Assembly (NCBI GenBank): GCA_000308255.3
Contig: HG326665.1
Span: 61,828-125,827 of the forward strand
Direction: 5' to 3'
Source: Anaerococcus pacaensis 9403502
GTDB taxonomy: Bacteria; Bacillota; Clostridia; Tissierellales; Peptoniphilaceae
DNA: 64,000 nucleotides
This document shows, in pieces, positions 44,093 to 50,035 of the stretch. Positions within the stretch are counted from its first letter, which is position 1, and every line of letters starts with the position of its first letter. The notes under the pieces were generated by a model. That model made no database searches and was not told the DNA's origin. It saw nothing but the letters and a program-made list of their open reading frames with translations. The translations under genes and the position numbers were made by a program.

Positions 44093-44722
44093 ATGCAGAA
44101 AATATACCTAGAATACCCAGAACTTACAGAAATCCCAGCAAACATTGTATCAAGAAAAATGAGCACAGACAGCACTCAGATTATCCTAGACCGCACTATA
44201 TTTATGCCAGGTTCATCATATCTACTTAAAGATACTGGCAGCATATCAGATATGGAAATCATTAGTATCGATGAAAAGAGAGATAATATTATCCATCTAG
44301 TAAAGGGCAGGCCAGAAAAATCTGAAGTAATATTAAGTCTTGATATGGCCACACGAATGAGAAATCTTTCTTACAATACCGCCTACATAATTTTTAAGAT
44401 GATAATGAGCTCATTTTATATCTATCAAGACATAGATCTTGAGCTCACATATGATAAAGCTAGACTAGTTGTAAATGAATTCTATGATGAATTTGATGCT
44501 GGTTTAATAGAAGAGCAAATTAATTTTCTGATAGAAAAATCCCTACGCATCTCAAATTGGCAAGGAATTACATCTATCTCCCCTCTTGGAGAAGTAGTAA
44601 ATAACGAAATTTCTTTTGATAATACCAGCAAAGTAAGGGGCTTTAAAATCCTCTCTCATGAATTTAAAGGAAATAACCTCCACATTGAAATAAAAGCAGG
44701 ATCTGATATCCTAAACTTATAG
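44093..44722 (+). CDS. AlaX-like protein lacking the zinc/editing motifs
   Basis: 209 residues. The first 110 follow the alanyl-tRNA editing (AlaX/AlaRS domain II) pattern: IYLEYPELTE at the start, IILDRTIFMPGSSYLLKDTGSI where LDxTxFYPEGGGQPxDxG is normal, NIIHLVKG, and LDMATRMRNLSYNTAYIIF where the motif RxxxMxxHTATHLL holds the zinc pair. Both His are gone, the Gly-rich loop is changed, and the later Cys/His (CxxxH) motif is not seen in NWQGITSISPLGEVV. So it is probably a relative that does not bind zinc or deacylate Ala-tRNA. Role unknown. Confidence 0.6.
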   Translation: MQKIYLEYPELTEIPANIVSRKMSTDSTQIILDRTIFMPGSSYLLKDTGSISDMEIISIDEKRDNIIHLVKGRPEKSEVILSLDMATRMRNLSYNTAYIIFKMIMSSFYIYQDIDLELTYDKARLVVNEFYDEFDAGLIEEQINFLIEKSLRISNWQGITSISPLGEVVNNEISFDNTSKVRGFKILSHEFKGNNLHIEIKAGSDILNL

Positions 44723-44747
44723 CAAAGTCATCTTTGCTATTTTTTAT
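44717..44747 (+). terminator. Terminator after the AlaX-like gene
   Basis: ATAGCAAAG/CTTTGCTAT with a 4-nt loop and six T; the stop codon is part of the stem. Confidence 0.85.
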
Positions 44748-44778
44748 GCCTAGTATTTCACCACACATTTACTACATA

Positions 44779-44807
44779 TTTACAAAACTATTTAAAGGTG
44801 CTATACT
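44779..44807 (+). promoter_or_regulatory. Promoter of the leader-ABC exporter unit
   Basis: TTTACA (44779-44784) and TATACT (44802-44807) with a 17-bp spacer; transcription should start near 44813. Confidence 0.75.
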
Positions 44808-44837
44808 TAAGACAGTTTGAAAGAAAGGAGTAAAAAA

Positions 44838-44879
44838 ATGAATAATACATCAAATAATATTAGGAACGTTTGTAACTAG
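44838..44879 (+). CDS. 13-codon leader peptide upstream of ABC exporter
   Basis: ATG with a strong ribosome site (AAAGGAGTAAAAAA) encodes MNNTSNNIRNVCN, then tandem TAG stops. The stop is directly followed by a hairpin, as in leader peptides of translational or transcriptional attenuators. It could instead be a tiny secreted peptide with one Cys; no precursor signal is visible. Translation is likely, function inferred. Confidence 0.55.
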   Translation: MNNTSNNIRNVCN

Positions 44880-44880
44880 T

Positions 44881-44958
44881 AGTCAAAGTAAGTAGATATA
44901 ACTCCTTGCTTTGACTATAAAATAAAATCAAGGAGGATGTGGGAGATTTCCCACGCTT
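44881..44958 (+). promoter_or_regulatory. Alternative hairpins controlling the ABC exporter ribosome site
   Basis: AGTCAAAG (44881-44888) pairs with CTTTGACT (44909-44916). The loop carries CTCCTTG (44902-44908), a perfect complement to CAAGGAG (44929-44935) in the exporter Shine-Dalgarno and also to the leader's own AAGGAG. A third hairpin, GTGGGA/TCCCAC (44939-44954), separates the Shine-Dalgarno from the ATG at 44959; folded, it leaves 6 nt of spacing, unfolded 22 nt. Confidence 0.6.
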
Positions 44959-46704
44959 ATGAAAGAATTAAAATTTATTTTCAAAGAAATGGCGTCAAAG
45001 GACCCATTTATGTATTTTATCATTATTTTCTATGCCTTTTTAGATGGTATATTACCATTTATATGGATTCTGGCACCAGCCTATGTCATAGAAAATAGAT
45101 CAAAAAATCTCGAGTTTTTCCTACTATTTTTTGTAGGTCTATTTCTTATTACTTCAATTATTAGATTCTTAGCTTCTTTTCTCACAGGTAATTACCGCAT
45201 GAGAATGAACAGACTCCGCTATGGACTAAATACAAAAATAATTGAATACTCTCTTGGCCTTTCCTATGCCGACCAGCAAGATAATAAAATTAAGGAAAAG
45301 ATTACCCAGGCTAACAGGGCTATAGAATTCCCATTTGATGGATTTGGTGGGATTGTTCTTTTCATGCCTGAAACTGTAAGTATGATAGTTTCACTAATAG
45401 GATTTTTGTGGATATTTACCGCCTTAGACTGGTATCTGGTAGTCTATATAATCCTTATGACTCTCCTTTCAAGTTTATATTTCTATAAGCTTGCATTCAC
45501 CTATGAGGAATATTGGGAAAACATAGATGATACTTGGGAAAAAATGGAACAGCTAAATTATGAACTAAAAAACCCAATCAGTAAGCTTGATATACTTATG
45601 TATGATATAACAAGTATACTTAAAAAATATTATTTTGGCATAACAGATTTTAGAAATCAGGAGCTTAAGCTAAACAATGCAAAGATAATGAAGCTACAAT
45701 TTAAAGCTAGGCTTCTTGCTCTCTTGAGGGATATACCAGTTTTTATTTGGATGATAGTAAGTCTTTATTATGGCAATATAGGAGTATCAGAATTTTATGT
45801 ACTTTTTACAGCTGTATTTGGATTTATTCTAATCACTTATTACCTATCAATGAATTTAGCTGACATAGCAAAAAACATCAAATTCTTTAGTCCGTATTTT
45901 GATATAGCCTTAAAGCCTTTAAAAAATTATGATGAGGCCAGTTTTGATAAGTTTGAGCTAACACTTAAGGATGTATGTTTTAAGTATCCATCATCTGATA
46001 AAAATATCCTAAATAACATCAACCTAACCATCCATGACAAGGAATCCATAGCCCTTGTTGGGGAAAATGGAGCTGGAAAGACTACCCTTGCCCTAATCCT
46101 AGCAGGATTATATGAGCCTACAAGTGGAAAGATTTTATTAAATGGTAGGGATATTAAAGAATACAACATAGACCAAAAGGCCTATATATCAGCAGTATTT
46201 CAAGACTCCCTCCTACTGCCTTATAGTATAAGAGAAAATGTATTAATGAGCGATAAAGATGCTGATGTTAGTGTTCTTTATAATAAGACAGGCTTAGATA
46301 CTATAGTAGATACTTATGAAAAGGGTGATGAGCAAATACTTCTAAGAACTTTAAGCGATGATGGGGTCGACCTATCTGGAGGCCAAAAACAAAGATTGTT
46401 CTTAGCCCGCGCCTTAAACAAAACTAGCGCTAAGCTATTATTGCTAGATGAGCCAACTGCCCAACTAGATGCTTTAGCAGAACGCGACTTATATGAGCTT
46501 TATAATAGTGAAGCAAAAGATAAGTCAAGTGTCTTTATTTCACACAGACTTGCATCGACCAAGTTTTGTGATAGGGTTATCTTTCTAAAAAACGGTGAGA
46601 TAATAGAAGAAGGTAACCACGATGAGCTGATAGATTTGGGCGGAGAATACAAGGAACTTTTTGAAATACAAGCTAAAAACTACAAGGAGGATCATAATGC
46701 ATAA
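44959..46704 (+). CDS. ABC exporter, permease-ATPase half-transporter 1
   Basis: 581 residues. Six membrane helices in the first 310 residues (exporter type), then an ATPase: Walker A VGENGAGKTTLA (about residue 367), Q-loop AVFQDSLLL, signature LSGGQKQRLFLARA, Walker B LLLLDEPTAQLD and H-loop SHRLAS. All catalytic motifs are canonical. The ATG has no ribosome site at normal distance; AAGGAGG lies 22 nt upstream beyond a hairpin. It pairs with the next gene as a heterodimer. Cargo is unknown (drug, lipid or peptide). Confidence 0.92.
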   Translation: MKELKFIFKEMASKDPFMYFIIIFYAFLDGILPFIWILAPAYVIENRSKNLEFFLLFFVGLFLITSIIRFLASFLTGNYRMRMNRLRYGLNTKIIEYSLGLSYADQQDNKIKEKITQANRAIEFPFDGFGGIVLFMPETVSMIVSLIGFLWIFTALDWYLVVYIILMTLLSSLYFYKLAFTYEEYWENIDDTWEKMEQLNYELKNPISKLDILMYDITSILKKYYFGITDFRNQELKLNNAKIMKLQFKARLLALLRDIPVFIWMIVSLYYGNIGVSEFYVLFTAVFGFILITYYLSMNLADIAKNIKFFSPYFDIALKPLKNYDEASFDKFELTLKDVCFKYPSSDKNILNNINLTIHDKESIALVGENGAGKTTLALILAGLYEPTSGKILLNGRDIKEYNIDQKAYISAVFQDSLLLPYSIRENVLMSDKDADVSVLYNKTGLDTIVDTYEKGDEQILLRTLSDDGVDLSGGQKQRLFLARALNKTSAKLLLLDEPTAQLDALAERDLYELYNSEAKDKSSVFISHRLASTKFCDRVIFLKNGEIIEEGNHDELIDLGGEYKELFEIQAKNYKEDHNA

Positions 46705-48457
46705 TTATATAAGGCTAATTAAGCTAGTAAATGAAAAAGAAAAAGGCTTTACTAAAAAGACAATTATATATTCGATCCTTCTTGGGATTTTGCCACTGCT
46801 AAGGCTAGTAGGTCCTAAGCTTATCATAGATGAATTTAATGGATCTCGCCGTTTAAATGTCATGCTTGCCATAGCCATAGGTGCGCTAGTATTAAATTTC
46901 ATATCAGATATGCTTAGAGTTAAGGCTAGCCAGTATTATATGCTTAGTCTAGACCATGTAAACGACAACCTGGCCTATGACCTAAATGAAAAGATATTAA
47001 AATTGCCACTGGAGATGACAGATAGTAAGAGTATCCAAGATAAGGCCCAAGAGGCAACACAGGGTCTTGGAAACATCTGGGGATTTTTTGAATTTTTAGG
47101 TTTTGGCCTTGGCCAAGTTGCAACAGCGATAGTATCGGTCTTTATCCTAATAAGGCTAAATCCACTTTTACCCTTAGTGTTAGTAGGTCTGTTTTTCTTA
47201 AACAAGCCTCTTAGTAAAAAACTTAAGGAAAATGAAGCTAACAATCAAAAAAGATCTGCTGAAGAAAATCGTATATACAAATACTATTTTAATTTCTCCA
47301 GAGACTTTAAATACTCCAAAGATATTAAGATATATAAGGCAGAAAATTTGATCCTTGATAAGGCAAACTTTCATTTAAACAGGATCTACGAACTAAACCA
47401 CAAATACTATACAGTAAATGGTATATACCTAGGCTTAATTAATGTCATTAATAACTTAGGTATAGTTGGTTCATTTATTTATCTAGGATCTAAATTACTT
47501 GTAAATGCTATAAGTGTAGCTGATTTCACATTATACTTCAACTCCATAAACGGACTTATAGAGGGTCTAAACTCCTTCCAAGGTTACTATCCAGAACTTG
47601 CTAGGGTCAATGTAACAATAGAGGCCTTGTTTGACTTTTTGGATATTGAGGAATCTTGGAATAAAGGTGGAGATATAGATAATATTGATTTATCTGATGT
47701 GAAAATAGAATTTAAAGATGTGTCTTTTAAATATCCTACAAGTAAAGACTACGTCCTAGAAAACTGCTCCTTTGTGATAAATCCAGGAGAAACAGTAGCC
47801 TTAGTTGGTCGAAACGGCGCTGGTAAGTCTACTATTGTAAAGCTTTTGTGTAAATTTTATGAGCCCACTAGCGGAGAGATTTTATTAAATGGTATAAATA
47901 TCAATGATATAGACACCTCATATTATTACCAAATCCTCTCCCCTACCTTCCAAGACTTTAGGTTGTTCCCGTTTAGGATAGATGAAAATGTGACTACTCA
48001 TGCCCATGAAGATATTAATGAGTCGGACTATGAAGAAATGGATAAGTCCTTTGATTTATTAAATATAAAAAATTGGGTATATGATTTGCCAGATGGTAAG
48101 GCTAATTATATATCAACCTTATTTGATAAAAATGGAGTACAGCCATCTGGGGGTATAGGTCAAAAGCTAGCTCTAGCACGCTCCATGTATCACAAGGGCA
48201 AGTTTATTATAATGGATGAGCCAACAAGCGCCCTAGATCCTCGTAGCGAGCAGGAAATATTTGAAAATATGTTAGCTATCACCAAAGATCAAACTTCACT
48301 TTTTATATCCCACAGATTATCTTCAACCAAATATGCAGACAGAATCCTCGTCTGCAACCACGGGCATATAGATGAAGTAGGGACACATGATGAACTTATG
48401 CTAAATGGTGGTTTGTACAAAGAGATGTTTAATACTCAAGCAGAACTTTATTCATAA
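46697..48457 (+). CDS. ABC exporter, permease-ATPase half-transporter 2
   Basis: 586 residues. Overlaps the first half by 8 bp; AAGGAGGATCATA supports the ATG at 46697 over the upstream frame start at 46661. Six membrane helices, then Walker A VGRNGAGKSTIV, Q-loop PTFQDFRLFPF, Walker B FIIMDEPTSALD and H-loop SHRLSS. The ABC signature is altered, PSGGIGQKLALARS instead of LSGGQ, so one of the two ATP sites in the heterodimer would be non-canonical, as in many heterodimeric exporters. Confidence 0.92.
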   Translation: MHNYIRLIKLVNEKEKGFTKKTIIYSILLGILPLLRLVGPKLIIDEFNGSRRLNVMLAIAIGALVLNFISDMLRVKASQYYMLSLDHVNDNLAYDLNEKILKLPLEMTDSKSIQDKAQEATQGLGNIWGFFEFLGFGLGQVATAIVSVFILIRLNPLLPLVLVGLFFLNKPLSKKLKENEANNQKRSAEENRIYKYYFNFSRDFKYSKDIKIYKAENLILDKANFHLNRIYELNHKYYTVNGIYLGLINVINNLGIVGSFIYLGSKLLVNAISVADFTLYFNSINGLIEGLNSFQGYYPELARVNVTIEALFDFLDIEESWNKGGDIDNIDLSDVKIEFKDVSFKYPTSKDYVLENCSFVINPGETVALVGRNGAGKSTIVKLLCKFYEPTSGEILLNGININDIDTSYYYQILSPTFQDFRLFPFRIDENVTTHAHEDINESDYEEMDKSFDLLNIKNWVYDLPDGKANYISTLFDKNGVQPSGGIGQKLALARSMYHKGKFIIMDEPTSALDPRSEQEIFENMLAITKDQTSLFISHRLSSTKYADRILVCNHGHIDEVGTHDELMLNGGLYKEMFNTQAELYS

Positions 48458-48502: not shown

Positions 48503-49090
48503 TTATCTATTTATTATAAAATCTATACCATAATACCAAGCCAGTGAGTATAAAATTAAGGCTGGTGGTTTACACAGAAAAATAATTAGTGCAAATTTTT
48601 TAAAGCTTATTTTTGATAAACCCGATAAGTAACTTAAAAAGTTATCAGGTGCTATAGGCAGTAAAATTGCAATTCTTAAAAATTTTTCGTATTTATCATC
48701 GCTTATTTTATCTTTGTATTTATTAAACGTGTCCTCACCAAATACGGCAAGCACCAAACTTTGCCCAAAACTTCTTGCTATCAAAAAAGCAGTAAGAGAT
48801 CCGAGGCAAATGGATACGTAATTGTAGATAATTCCCTTAATCGGGCCAAAGGTTATGACACCAAAGGCCTGAATCACTCCTCCTGGTATAAAAGGAACTA
48901 TAACCGACATAATATTTGCTATAAAAAATATTATAAAAGCCCAAGGTCCATAAGATAGGACAAAGCTCCTAAAGCTATCCACTGAGTCAAACAATTCTCT
49001 CTTATAGCCATAATAACCCAACCCTAAAAAAATCAAAAAAATAAGCAGGGAAATAATATTGTATTTATTTTTTCTTAAAAAGTCTTTCAT
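48503..49090 (-). CDS. TVP38/TMEM64 (VTT-domain) membrane protein, copy 2
   Basis: 195 residues, about five membrane segments. Contains the VTT features: IVPFIPGGVIQAFGVITFGPIKGIIYNYVSICLGSLTAFLIARSFG (pieces PFIPGGVI, FGPIKG, GSLTAFLIARSFG) and IAILLPIAPDNFLSYLSGLSKI. Related proteins act in lipid scrambling or membrane homeostasis. It is a close paralogue of the next upstream gene (49097-49693) and lies 6 bp after it. Confidence 0.88.
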   Translation of the reverse strand: MKDFLRKNKYNIISLLIFLIFLGLGYYGYKRELFDSVDSFRSFVLSYGPWAFIIFFIANIMSVIVPFIPGGVIQAFGVITFGPIKGIIYNYVSICLGSLTAFLIARSFGQSLVLAVFGEDTFNKYKDKISDDKYEKFLRIAILLPIAPDNFLSYLSGLSKISFKKFALIIFLCKPPALILYSLAWYYGIDFIINR

Positions 49091-49096
49091 ATCATA

Positions 49097-49693
49097 TCAA
49101 AAATTAAATTTTGTAATTAACCAATCAAAGCCCATGGCCATAGCCATTGAATATAAAAATAGTGAAGGCGGCTTACATAGTAATATGATGGTAACAAACT
49201 TCTTTAGGCTCATATTACCAAGTCCCGTTAGGTAACACAAAAAGTCATCTGGGGCTACTGGAAGTAGTATTGCTATTGCAAAAAACTTCTCATACTTATC
49301 TTCATCTAACTTACTTTTGTATTTGTTGTAAGTCTCCTCACCAACTATCTTTAGGACAACACTCTTGCCAAAAGTTCTAGATATCAGAAATACAATGATA
49401 GATCCTAGACATACAGAGATATAATTATAAATAAAGCCCCAAACTGGACCAAAAATTATCACTCCAAACACCAGTGTTGCTCCACCTGGAATAATCGGCA
49501 CCACTACTTGGATTATATTTACAATCATAAATATAATATACGACGCCGTGCCATAGGATAATATAAATTCTCTAAATGTATCTACTGAGTTAAAGAGACC
49601 CTTCTTGTATCCGAACCATCCAAGAGCGGTCAGTACCACCAAGACTATCAATGAGATTATGTTGTGAATATTTTTCTTTAAGAAGTTTTTCAT
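49097..49693 (-). CDS. TVP38/TMEM64 (VTT-domain) membrane protein, copy 1
   Basis: 198 residues. Same layout as its neighbour: VVPIIPGGATLVFGVIIFGPVWG, GSIIVFLISRTFGKSVV, AILLPVAPDDFLCYLTGLGNMSLKKF. GAAGGTATT before the ATG at 49693 is preferred to the frame start at 49729. The pair reads as a tandem duplication, well diverged (roughly 60% alike by eye). Confidence 0.87.
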   Translation of the reverse strand: MKNFLKKNIHNIISLIVLVVLTALGWFGYKKGLFNSVDTFREFILSYGTASYIIFMIVNIIQVVVPIIPGGATLVFGVIIFGPVWGFIYNYISVCLGSIIVFLISRTFGKSVVLKIVGEETYNKYKSKLDEDKYEKFFAIAILLPVAPDDFLCYLTGLGNMSLKKFVTIILLCKPPSLFLYSMAMAMGFDWLITKFNF

Positions 49694-50035
49694 AATACCT
49701 TCTTTGGTAGTTATTAGCAAATATCTCATAGTTATATAATAACTATGAATTTTAAATTTCTTATTAGCTAATTGTAAAATTTGTACTGTGTTATATACAA
49801 TAGTACGCCTATTTTATCTATACGTCAATTAATTATATTGATTATAATAAAATTAAAACAACATATGTCATAAATTAATAATTATAACCAATAAATTTCT
49901 ATCATTTGGTTTTTGTTATATAAAATGTAGATTTGAATCATTCTAGCCACATCTTATATTGTAGAATTTATTCGTAAATATACTATAGCATAACCGAAAC
50001 TCATCTTTAATAGATACCCAAAGAATTATTTATCA
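49694..50035. other. AT-rich intergenic region, no gene seen
   Basis: About 340 bp of very AT-rich DNA holding the 5' region of the VTT pair. TATAAT-like boxes are frequent but none with a convincing -35. No ORF with a ribosome site, tRNA or clear repeat was found; a decayed gene or IS remnant cannot be ruled out. Confidence 0.5.

Follow-up and report, generated by a model that had tools for sequence, protein, structure and literature searches.

Layout of the regulatory region

We analysed a stretch of 64,000 nucleotides (nt) from Anaerococcus pacaensis 9403502 (contig HG326665.1, positions 61,828 to 125,827; the whole stretch is called the window below), in which a short regulatory region precedes two genes for an ATP-binding cassette (ABC) exporter. 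From 5' to 3' it holds a promoter-like site, the Shine-Dalgarno (SD) sequence of a leader, the leader open reading frame (ORF), a hairpin that we call P1, the SD of the exporter, a second hairpin that we call P4, and the exporter ATG. A heptamer complementary to the exporter SD, the anti-SD, lies within P1, mostly in its 3' arm. The features, numbered from the first letter of the window, are:

44779..44807, + strand: promoter-like site, TTTACA-17-TATACT with TG before the second hexamer (sigma-70-like consensus scan, 10/12 matches)
44824..44830, + strand: leader SD, AAAGGAG
44838..44879, + strand: leader ORF of 13 codons, peptide MNNTSNNIRNVCN plus stop (ATG 44838-44840, TAG 44877-44879)
44879..44918, + strand: P1 hairpin, arms 44879-44892 and 44905-44918, plus 2 inner pairs
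44902..44908, + strand: anti-SD CTCCTTG, mostly inside the 3' arm of P1
44929..44936, + strand: exporter SD, CAAGGAGG, with CAAGGAG at 44929-44935
44939..44954, + strand: P4 bridging hairpin, GTGGGA-GATT-TCCCAC, between exporter SD and ATG
44959..46704, + strand: ABC exporter half-transporter subunit 1 (PF00005, 6.2e-31)
46697..48457, + strand: ABC exporter half-transporter subunit 2 (PF00005 and PF00664 matches)

The promoter-like site, leader ORF, P1, anti-SD and exporter SD are confirmed as one unit, well above chance. The leader ORF described in the initial annotation, 13 codons with a ribosome site and ending at a hairpin, is present, its stop codon at 44877-44879 and the 14-bp stem of P1 (G-U pairs counted) beginning at that stop. 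P1 alone folds at -19.0 kcal/mol, against a mean of -4.78 for dinucleotide-shuffled versions (z -6.41, 0/200 shuffles as good), and the whole leader region is more stable than its shuffles (z -3.89, 1/200 as good). CTCCTTG is complementary to the exporter's CAAGGAG over 7 nt and to the leader's own AAGGAG over 6 nt, as had been proposed; the hairpin itself had been drawn at 44881-44916 with CTCCTTG in its loop, and we find it at 44879-44918 with the heptamer mostly in the 3' arm. Because the anti-SD sits in the arm of P1 and not in its loop, the logic of the switch changes. The promoter-like site and P4 are additions to what the initial annotation described.

The leader stop lies 50 nt from the exporter SD. 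A scan of 44600-45200 gave only two terminator-like sites, one where the upstream gene ends (44719-44740) and one within the exporter ORF (45120-45137), and none in the leader. With such a hairpin closing the upstream gene, the exporter is probably transcribed separately. Several relatives have, by eye, a similar promoter-like site in the same place.

Conservation of the element across the genus

The arrangement is kept well beyond the window. Among 31 genomes of the genus, with orthologs called at E <= 1e-60, 30 have a match to the exporter (G023, in our genome labels, has none), and a leader ORF with SD, P1 and an anti-SD:SD match accompanies 28 of these 30 orthologs. In assembling this set, the leader of G016 was set by hand, the search rule having picked another ORF, and a rule match in G021 was discarded as lying far upstream with no hairpin at its stop; G020 and G021 were left out of the element analyses after the count of 28/30. 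All 28 relatives with a leader have an AGGAG-type SD before it, and the leader runs to 12-16 codons in 27 of them and to 27 codons in G008. With the fold starting 6 nt ahead of the leader stop and reaching 21 nt into the exporter, a hairpin equivalent to P1 forms in 28/28. Measured from the end of the leader stop, its first nucleotide lies no more than 4 nt upstream or 5 nt downstream in 27/28 genomes (the exception is G008), so that the position of P1 at the stop is kept although leader length and sequence vary. The G012 match, one of the 30, is a decayed exporter copy with several stops, apparently lost only recently; the leader, P1, anti-SD and P4 persist there, and the SD reads CAAGGGGG.

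The anti-SD:SD helix has 96.3% of its cells paired across the alignment, against 37.5-68.3% in slid registers. Some genomes carry an altered match, found by eye: ACTCCT-ATAAA or GCTCCT-ATAAA with TTTAT-AAGGAG in G018 and G019, and CCTTGA with TCAAGG in G022. The only consensus structure that RNAalifold returned for the 23 distinct sequences was the anti-SD:SD helix; this is not an independent test because P1 is out of register between clades in the alignment.

The 2.37 Mb genome has a single copy of the pattern CTCCTTG-N8-30-CAAGGAG, at this exporter; the pattern stands at the exporter in 24/31 genus genomes and at 4 other places over all 31, while a reversed control pattern has no match in the 31. 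An identical 35-nt CTCCTTG/CAAGGAG site lies away from the exporter in two species (G013:C12:15711-15745 and G018:C55:13662-13696). Order-wide, the pattern matched 77/249 genomes, made up of 26 in the genus and 51/218 outside it, and the reversed control matched about 24/218 outside; among the outside matches there may be genuine elements of a different kind. From the 23 distinct sequences we built a covariance model, R1, spanning P1 to the ATG; it matches one site in each of 28/31 genus genomes, these being its own training sequences, and finds none in G020, G021 or G023. Outside the genus it gave 2 weak matches in the 218 other genomes of the order (E 0.0145 and 0.0196), both set aside with adjoining ORFs that by eye are DsrE-like and D-serine-dehydratase-like; searches over more than 40 genomes were run with stricter filters. 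By these searches the candidate element is present in a single copy and, at the sensitivity used, does not extend beyond the genus. Rfam gave 0 matches in the window at gathering score, and 8 sub-threshold matches all fell far below their gathering scores.

On an exporter tree rooted on one distant outgroup, with G012 not included, the leader is found on both sides of the deepest ingroup split. Within the family but outside the genus, G059 alone has an exporter match at E <= 1e-95 (39% identity), and by eye no such leader was seen there; of 56 named loci that are 25-39% identical by best segment, one, L032, was viewed by eye. In G021 (locus L110), which is without the leader, a long hairpin, ATCTAAATAAAGT/ACTTTATTTAGAT, was seen by eye to end immediately at the exporter SD; having lost the leader, this species may control the SD in another way.

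A leader kept in place while its peptide changes

Leader peptides vary freely across the genus. There are 23 different leader peptides among the 28 genomes, and within five clades (20 genomes) 19 leader codons vary, 18 of them nonsynonymously and 1 with synonymous changes only. The kept SD, ATG and stop position lead us to infer that the leader is translated. No signature of a conserved arrest peptide was found among the leader peptides of the 28 genomes. The motif [KR]x[KR], which we take to be the macrolide-type arrest motif, occurs in 14/23 distinct peptides (shuffle p 0.006), and after related leaders were collapsed in 8/15 (p 0.22); we rejected it as evidence. A leader for amino-acid starvation was likewise rejected, the peptides having no common run of codons: Asn is common, with 6/13 in the window's leader, but makes up 1/12 in MTIIKIGKKTRN and MTKLRKRKKTRN. 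Because the peptides vary freely, sensing of leader completion would be favoured over sensing of a particular peptide or amino acid.

A ribosome site bridged by a hairpin

In the window, 23 nt separate the end of AAGGAG from the exporter ATG, and the P4 hairpin in this interval folds at -9.7 kcal/mol (2/200 shuffles as stable). The same holds widely in the genus: the SD core AAGG(A/G)G ends 16-23 nt before the ATG in 22/28 genomes, with a spacer hairpin of 3-8 pairs, and for each of 13 distinct spacers 0-4/200 shuffles are as stable; the other 6/28 have a spacing of 4 or 11 nt and no spacer hairpin. P4 stems change in sequence with their pairing kept, as in GTGGGA/TCCCAC, GCGG/CCGC, GTAGGA/TCCTAC, GAGG/CCTC, GCCGA/TCGGC and GCCA/TGGC. 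Stem length alone is a weak control, 29 to 499 of 500 shuffles reaching the observed length, and for the G029 group this control scored another 3-bp stem; what distinguishes P4 from its shuffles is the stem energy.

Among 58 window ORFs of at least 120 codons, the exporter start is the only one with a bridged SD, meaning that a strong SD stands 14-30 nt before the start and that the spacer holds a hairpin at least as stable as -4 kcal/mol; it is also flagged as having a near SD, from a GGAG inside P4, 13 nt from the ATG. The hairpin-bridged state requires 4 changes on the exporter tree, at least 3 of them forced by well-supported branches. These observations suggest that in most species the exporter SD would be too distant from its ATG to serve as it stands, and that P4 would fold out the excess and restore a usable spacing.

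Predicted effect of a ribosome on the leader

We modelled the RNA from the leader through the first exporter codons, with the ribosome as a mask of 31 nt, 15 on either side of the first P-site nucleotide (for these masks and for the peptide counts, the G008 leader was cut at the P1 position). The mean cost of opening the six SD nucleotides is 1.09 kcal/mol in the free RNA. A ribosome at the start codon brings it to 1.16, one at codon 4, 6 or 8 to 1.25, 1.29 or 1.12, and one at the stop to 4.71; the cost at the stop exceeds the free cost in 28/28 genomes. When the stretch from leader stop to SD is shuffled (60 per genome, 1,680 in total), the mean rise is 0.09 with a standard deviation of 1.15, and the real rise is reached by 0-3 of 60 shuffles in each genome. 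With the leaders aligned on their last sense codon, the mean cost holds at 1.1-1.3 until four codons before this point and then climbs to 2.2, 3.28, 4.35 and 4.71, which places the predicted closing of the SD within the last 2-4 leader codons. Over the same transition, the mean pairing of the SD with the stretch from leader stop to SD goes from 0.15 in the free RNA to 0.96 with a ribosome at the stop, where it is at least 0.82 in every genome. The leader ORF itself is predicted to pair little with the 5' arm of P1 (a probability of 0.03 on average and of at most 0.31, in G022).

This model predicts that the exporter is off when the leader is finished and on when the leader is not finished or not begun. 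The initial annotation had proposed a leader ORF with an anti-SD switch before an ABC exporter, a ribosome at the leader's end opening the hairpin and changing the pairing, in the manner of erm-type attenuation, with an exported antibiotic or peptide as a possible signal. The leader and the anti-SD switch are retained here, and a ribosome at the leader's end does open P1 and change the pairing in the predicted folds; it would shut the exporter off instead, and the erm-type direction is not supported by the folding, which is less clear in a few species.

Proposed mechanism

From the folding models and the conservation, we judge it probable that the element is a ribosome-gated translational attenuator of the ABC exporter operon with trp- or bmrB-type logic. 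With the leader empty, or a ribosome held in its first two thirds, P1 would form, lock up the anti-SD and leave the exporter SD open (ON). Ribosomes reaching the last few codons and the stop would cover the 5' arm of P1, and the anti-SD, now free, would occupy the exporter SD (OFF). More exporter would be made whenever ribosomes read the leader slowly, stall on it or do not read it, as might happen under antibiotics that target the ribosome; this signal, like any substrate that the exporter may carry, we infer. A bolder version, which we hold only tentatively and on balance doubt, is that the leader meters translation failure independently of its peptide, any failure of the leader, including a lack of initiation, turning the exporter on. 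The default state would then be ON and finished leader translation would act as the repressor, rather than one drug or amino acid being sensed, and the switch would act on a ribosome site whose SD works only by way of a bridging hairpin.

Points against the attenuator and alternative explanations

Several observations weigh against the attenuator as proposed. G020 and G021 keep the exporter and are without the element. In G008 (locus L089), the sole such case of 28, the leader frame runs through P1 and ends 9 nt before AAGGAG. When longer stretches are folded, P1 becomes less certain in some species, and for G022 the free RNA then shows the anti-SD:SD helix in place of P1. The G029 group (7 genomes) has the weakest P4, a 3-bp stem followed by five T, which might be a terminator although it is too short for the terminator rule. 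The anti-SD:SD helix has no two-sided changes and does not rise above column shuffles; the exporter SD is nearly invariant for its own reasons, and among these sequences covariation is neither for nor against the helix. The folds are equilibrium folds with a fixed-size ribosome mask and without pseudoknots or co-transcriptional kinetics, the effect in the window itself is the smallest of the 28 (1.34 to 2.68 kcal/mol), and the free SD is on average 41% paired with something across all 28.

Two further points of this kind also favour an erm- or cat-type attenuator, in which expression is OFF by default until a drug stalls the ribosome on a specific arrest peptide and so releases the exporter SD. 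Without a ribosome, the anti-SD stretch already pairs with the SD in 6/28 genomes (G030 0.88, G017 0.69, G014 0.48, G013 0.44, G007 0.42, G022 0.36), leaving it partly covered, and a ribosome in mid-leader lowers the opening cost by at least 0.5 kcal/mol below the free cost in 5/28 (G013, G017, G030, G029 and G003), in these folds a partly erm-like feature. A leader ORF, an SD-sequestering helix and a resistance-type cargo would fit such a mechanism as well. However, in erm leaders the ribosome-free RNA takes the form of 1:2 plus 3:4 pairing with the SD closed (regions 1-4 of ermC), and erm-type attenuators have a conserved drug-arrest peptide. That SD-closed, ribosome-free fold is not found in silico here, the 6/28 being partial exceptions: the pairing between leader and P1 arm is too slight for a default-OFF state, and the free SD is predicted to be cheap to open. 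The peptides vary freely, 18 of 19 variable codons changing nonsynonymously, and the enrichment of [KR]x[KR] disappears on collapsing related leaders. We regard this alternative as unlikely.

Unlikelier again is translational coupling, in which ribosomes ending the leader would open structure and re-initiate, or aid initiation, at the exporter, so that leader translation would raise exporter synthesis. The leader stop is just 50 nt from the exporter SD, and the G008 leader comes far closer, which would suit coupling; yet the predicted structures leave the SD uncovered by P1, the SD is predicted to close in 28/28 when P1 opens, and the complementarity to the SD would have no role. That P1 and the anti-SD answer to a ligand, a protein or a small RNA, the short ORF being incidental, seems to us the least probable of these alternatives: P1 is strong and conserved and the peptide sequence is not, as such a signal would allow, but the leader's SD, ATG and stop position at P1 are kept in 27/28 while the codons between them change, and there is no Rfam family at gathering score. 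Transcription attenuation was considered and rejected, the window's leader having no terminator-like site and 1/28 relatives having one, the P4 hairpin of G013. Set beside these alternatives, the ribosome-gated attenuator is the reading that we carry forward.

The exporter and neighbouring genes

The best NCBIfam match of subunit 1 is MsbA-type (1.6e-56, below cut-off), and none reaches a curated cut-off among the best 25 of 187 and the best 25 of 185 matches of the subunits. Among the matches listed, PDB entries are headed by the yeast a-factor exporter and P-glycoprotein-like proteins; for subunit 2 the first bacterial half-transporter among the 60 PDB matches listed is TM_0288 (1.1e-50). 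The ATG of subunit 2 at 46697 overlaps the end of subunit 1 (the ORF list places its start at a TTG, 46661), and because of this overlap control of subunit 1 likely reaches both. From the gene pair, the two subunits would form a heterodimer.

Directly upstream of the regulatory region lies 44093-44722, whose short product resembles AlaXM (NCBIfam 7.3e-13, well under the cut-off, and without a Pfam match), perhaps a shortened relative of alanyl-tRNA editing proteins. Beyond the exporter, 48503-49729 on the minus strand encodes two adjacent VTT-domain membrane proteins, perhaps a tandem duplication.

Significance

This work extends an observation from one window to a genus, with the arrangement kept in nearly all genomes examined. 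If the proposed mechanism is true, a whole genus ties a chromosomal ABC exporter to the performance of its ribosomes through an SD switch, with a default opposite to that of erm, and the range of leader-controlled drug pumps would extend beyond those that work by terminators. It would explain how an exporter could be induced by ribosome-acting drugs without a dedicated sensor protein, and P4 would offer a case of a hairpin-bridged SD site on a bacterial chromosome, complete with natural variants of the stem.

Comparison with known systems

In the literature we searched by titles and abstract openings, with subscription journals mostly outside its coverage, no exporter with a translational leader switch was found, and among the matches listed under the genus name Anaerococcus nothing was relevant. 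As far as the consulted parts of the sources describe them, the efflux genes mef(E)/mel have a leader that acts by transcription (PMC4335068), and patAB of Streptococcus pneumoniae are ABC exporter genes under a 5' attenuator with a Rho-independent terminator (PMC4319486); ABC exporter genes lie downstream in patAB as here, and in the consulted part of that source no SD switch is described. In yxjB and vmlR of B. subtilis, both transcription and translation are controlled by a ribosome that a drug stalls on a short leader ORF (PMC6851288, PMC9226507). The likeness is a short leader ORF that controls, here by prediction, a resistance-type gene; unlike here, the accounts consulted describe terminators and RNA polymerase pausing as also used, and the controlled genes encode a 23S rRNA methyltransferase and an ABC-F protein, where ours encodes an exporter.

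The bridged ribosome site has its own precedent. In the T4 genes 38 and 25, structure between SD and AUG shortens spacings of 22 and 27 nt to 5 and 11 nt (PMC3014915, in the part consulted). As in gene 38, 22/28 genomes here have a long SD-AUG spacing with a hairpin taking up the excess. Unlike the T4 case as described there, the bridging hairpin accompanies an SD switch, lies on a bacterial chromosome and has a stem of changing sequence, and its effect is predicted.

Translational attenuation of the erm and cat-86 type, discussed in part of PMC4191407, shares with our element a leader ORF with its own SD (28/30), alternative hairpins and sequestration of the SD, the last two predicted here. 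Unlike erm and cat-86, the element has little region-1 pairing and no conserved arrest peptide, and in most genomes its SD is predicted to be open without a ribosome. The logic of trp-type leaders, in which 3:4 can form once a ribosome at the stop has broken 2:3, is found in silico in 28/28 genomes; unlike trp-type leaders, ours have no runs of control codons for one amino acid.

The system closest in working is bmrB-bmrCD of Bacillus subtilis, which we know from part of its description (PMC4191407). There, a leader ORF of 53 amino acids, bmrB, precedes the ABC multidrug exporter pair bmrCD, contains an intrinsic terminator and acts on transcription; removing its translation lowers expression and abolishes induction. 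Unlike bmrB so described, the leaders here are mostly of 12-16 codons, the OFF structure covers the SD, the window's leader contains no terminator-like site, and removing leader translation is predicted to raise expression. Because of that missing terminator-like site, and because the switch acts on the SD, we do not place the element among bmrB-type leaders. Both nevertheless stand before two adjacent ABC half-transporter genes, and the bmrB model, in which unimpeded leader translation promotes the OFF structure and slowed translation the ON structure (PMC4191407), matches the behaviour predicted here, an unimpeded leader ribosome favouring OFF in both.

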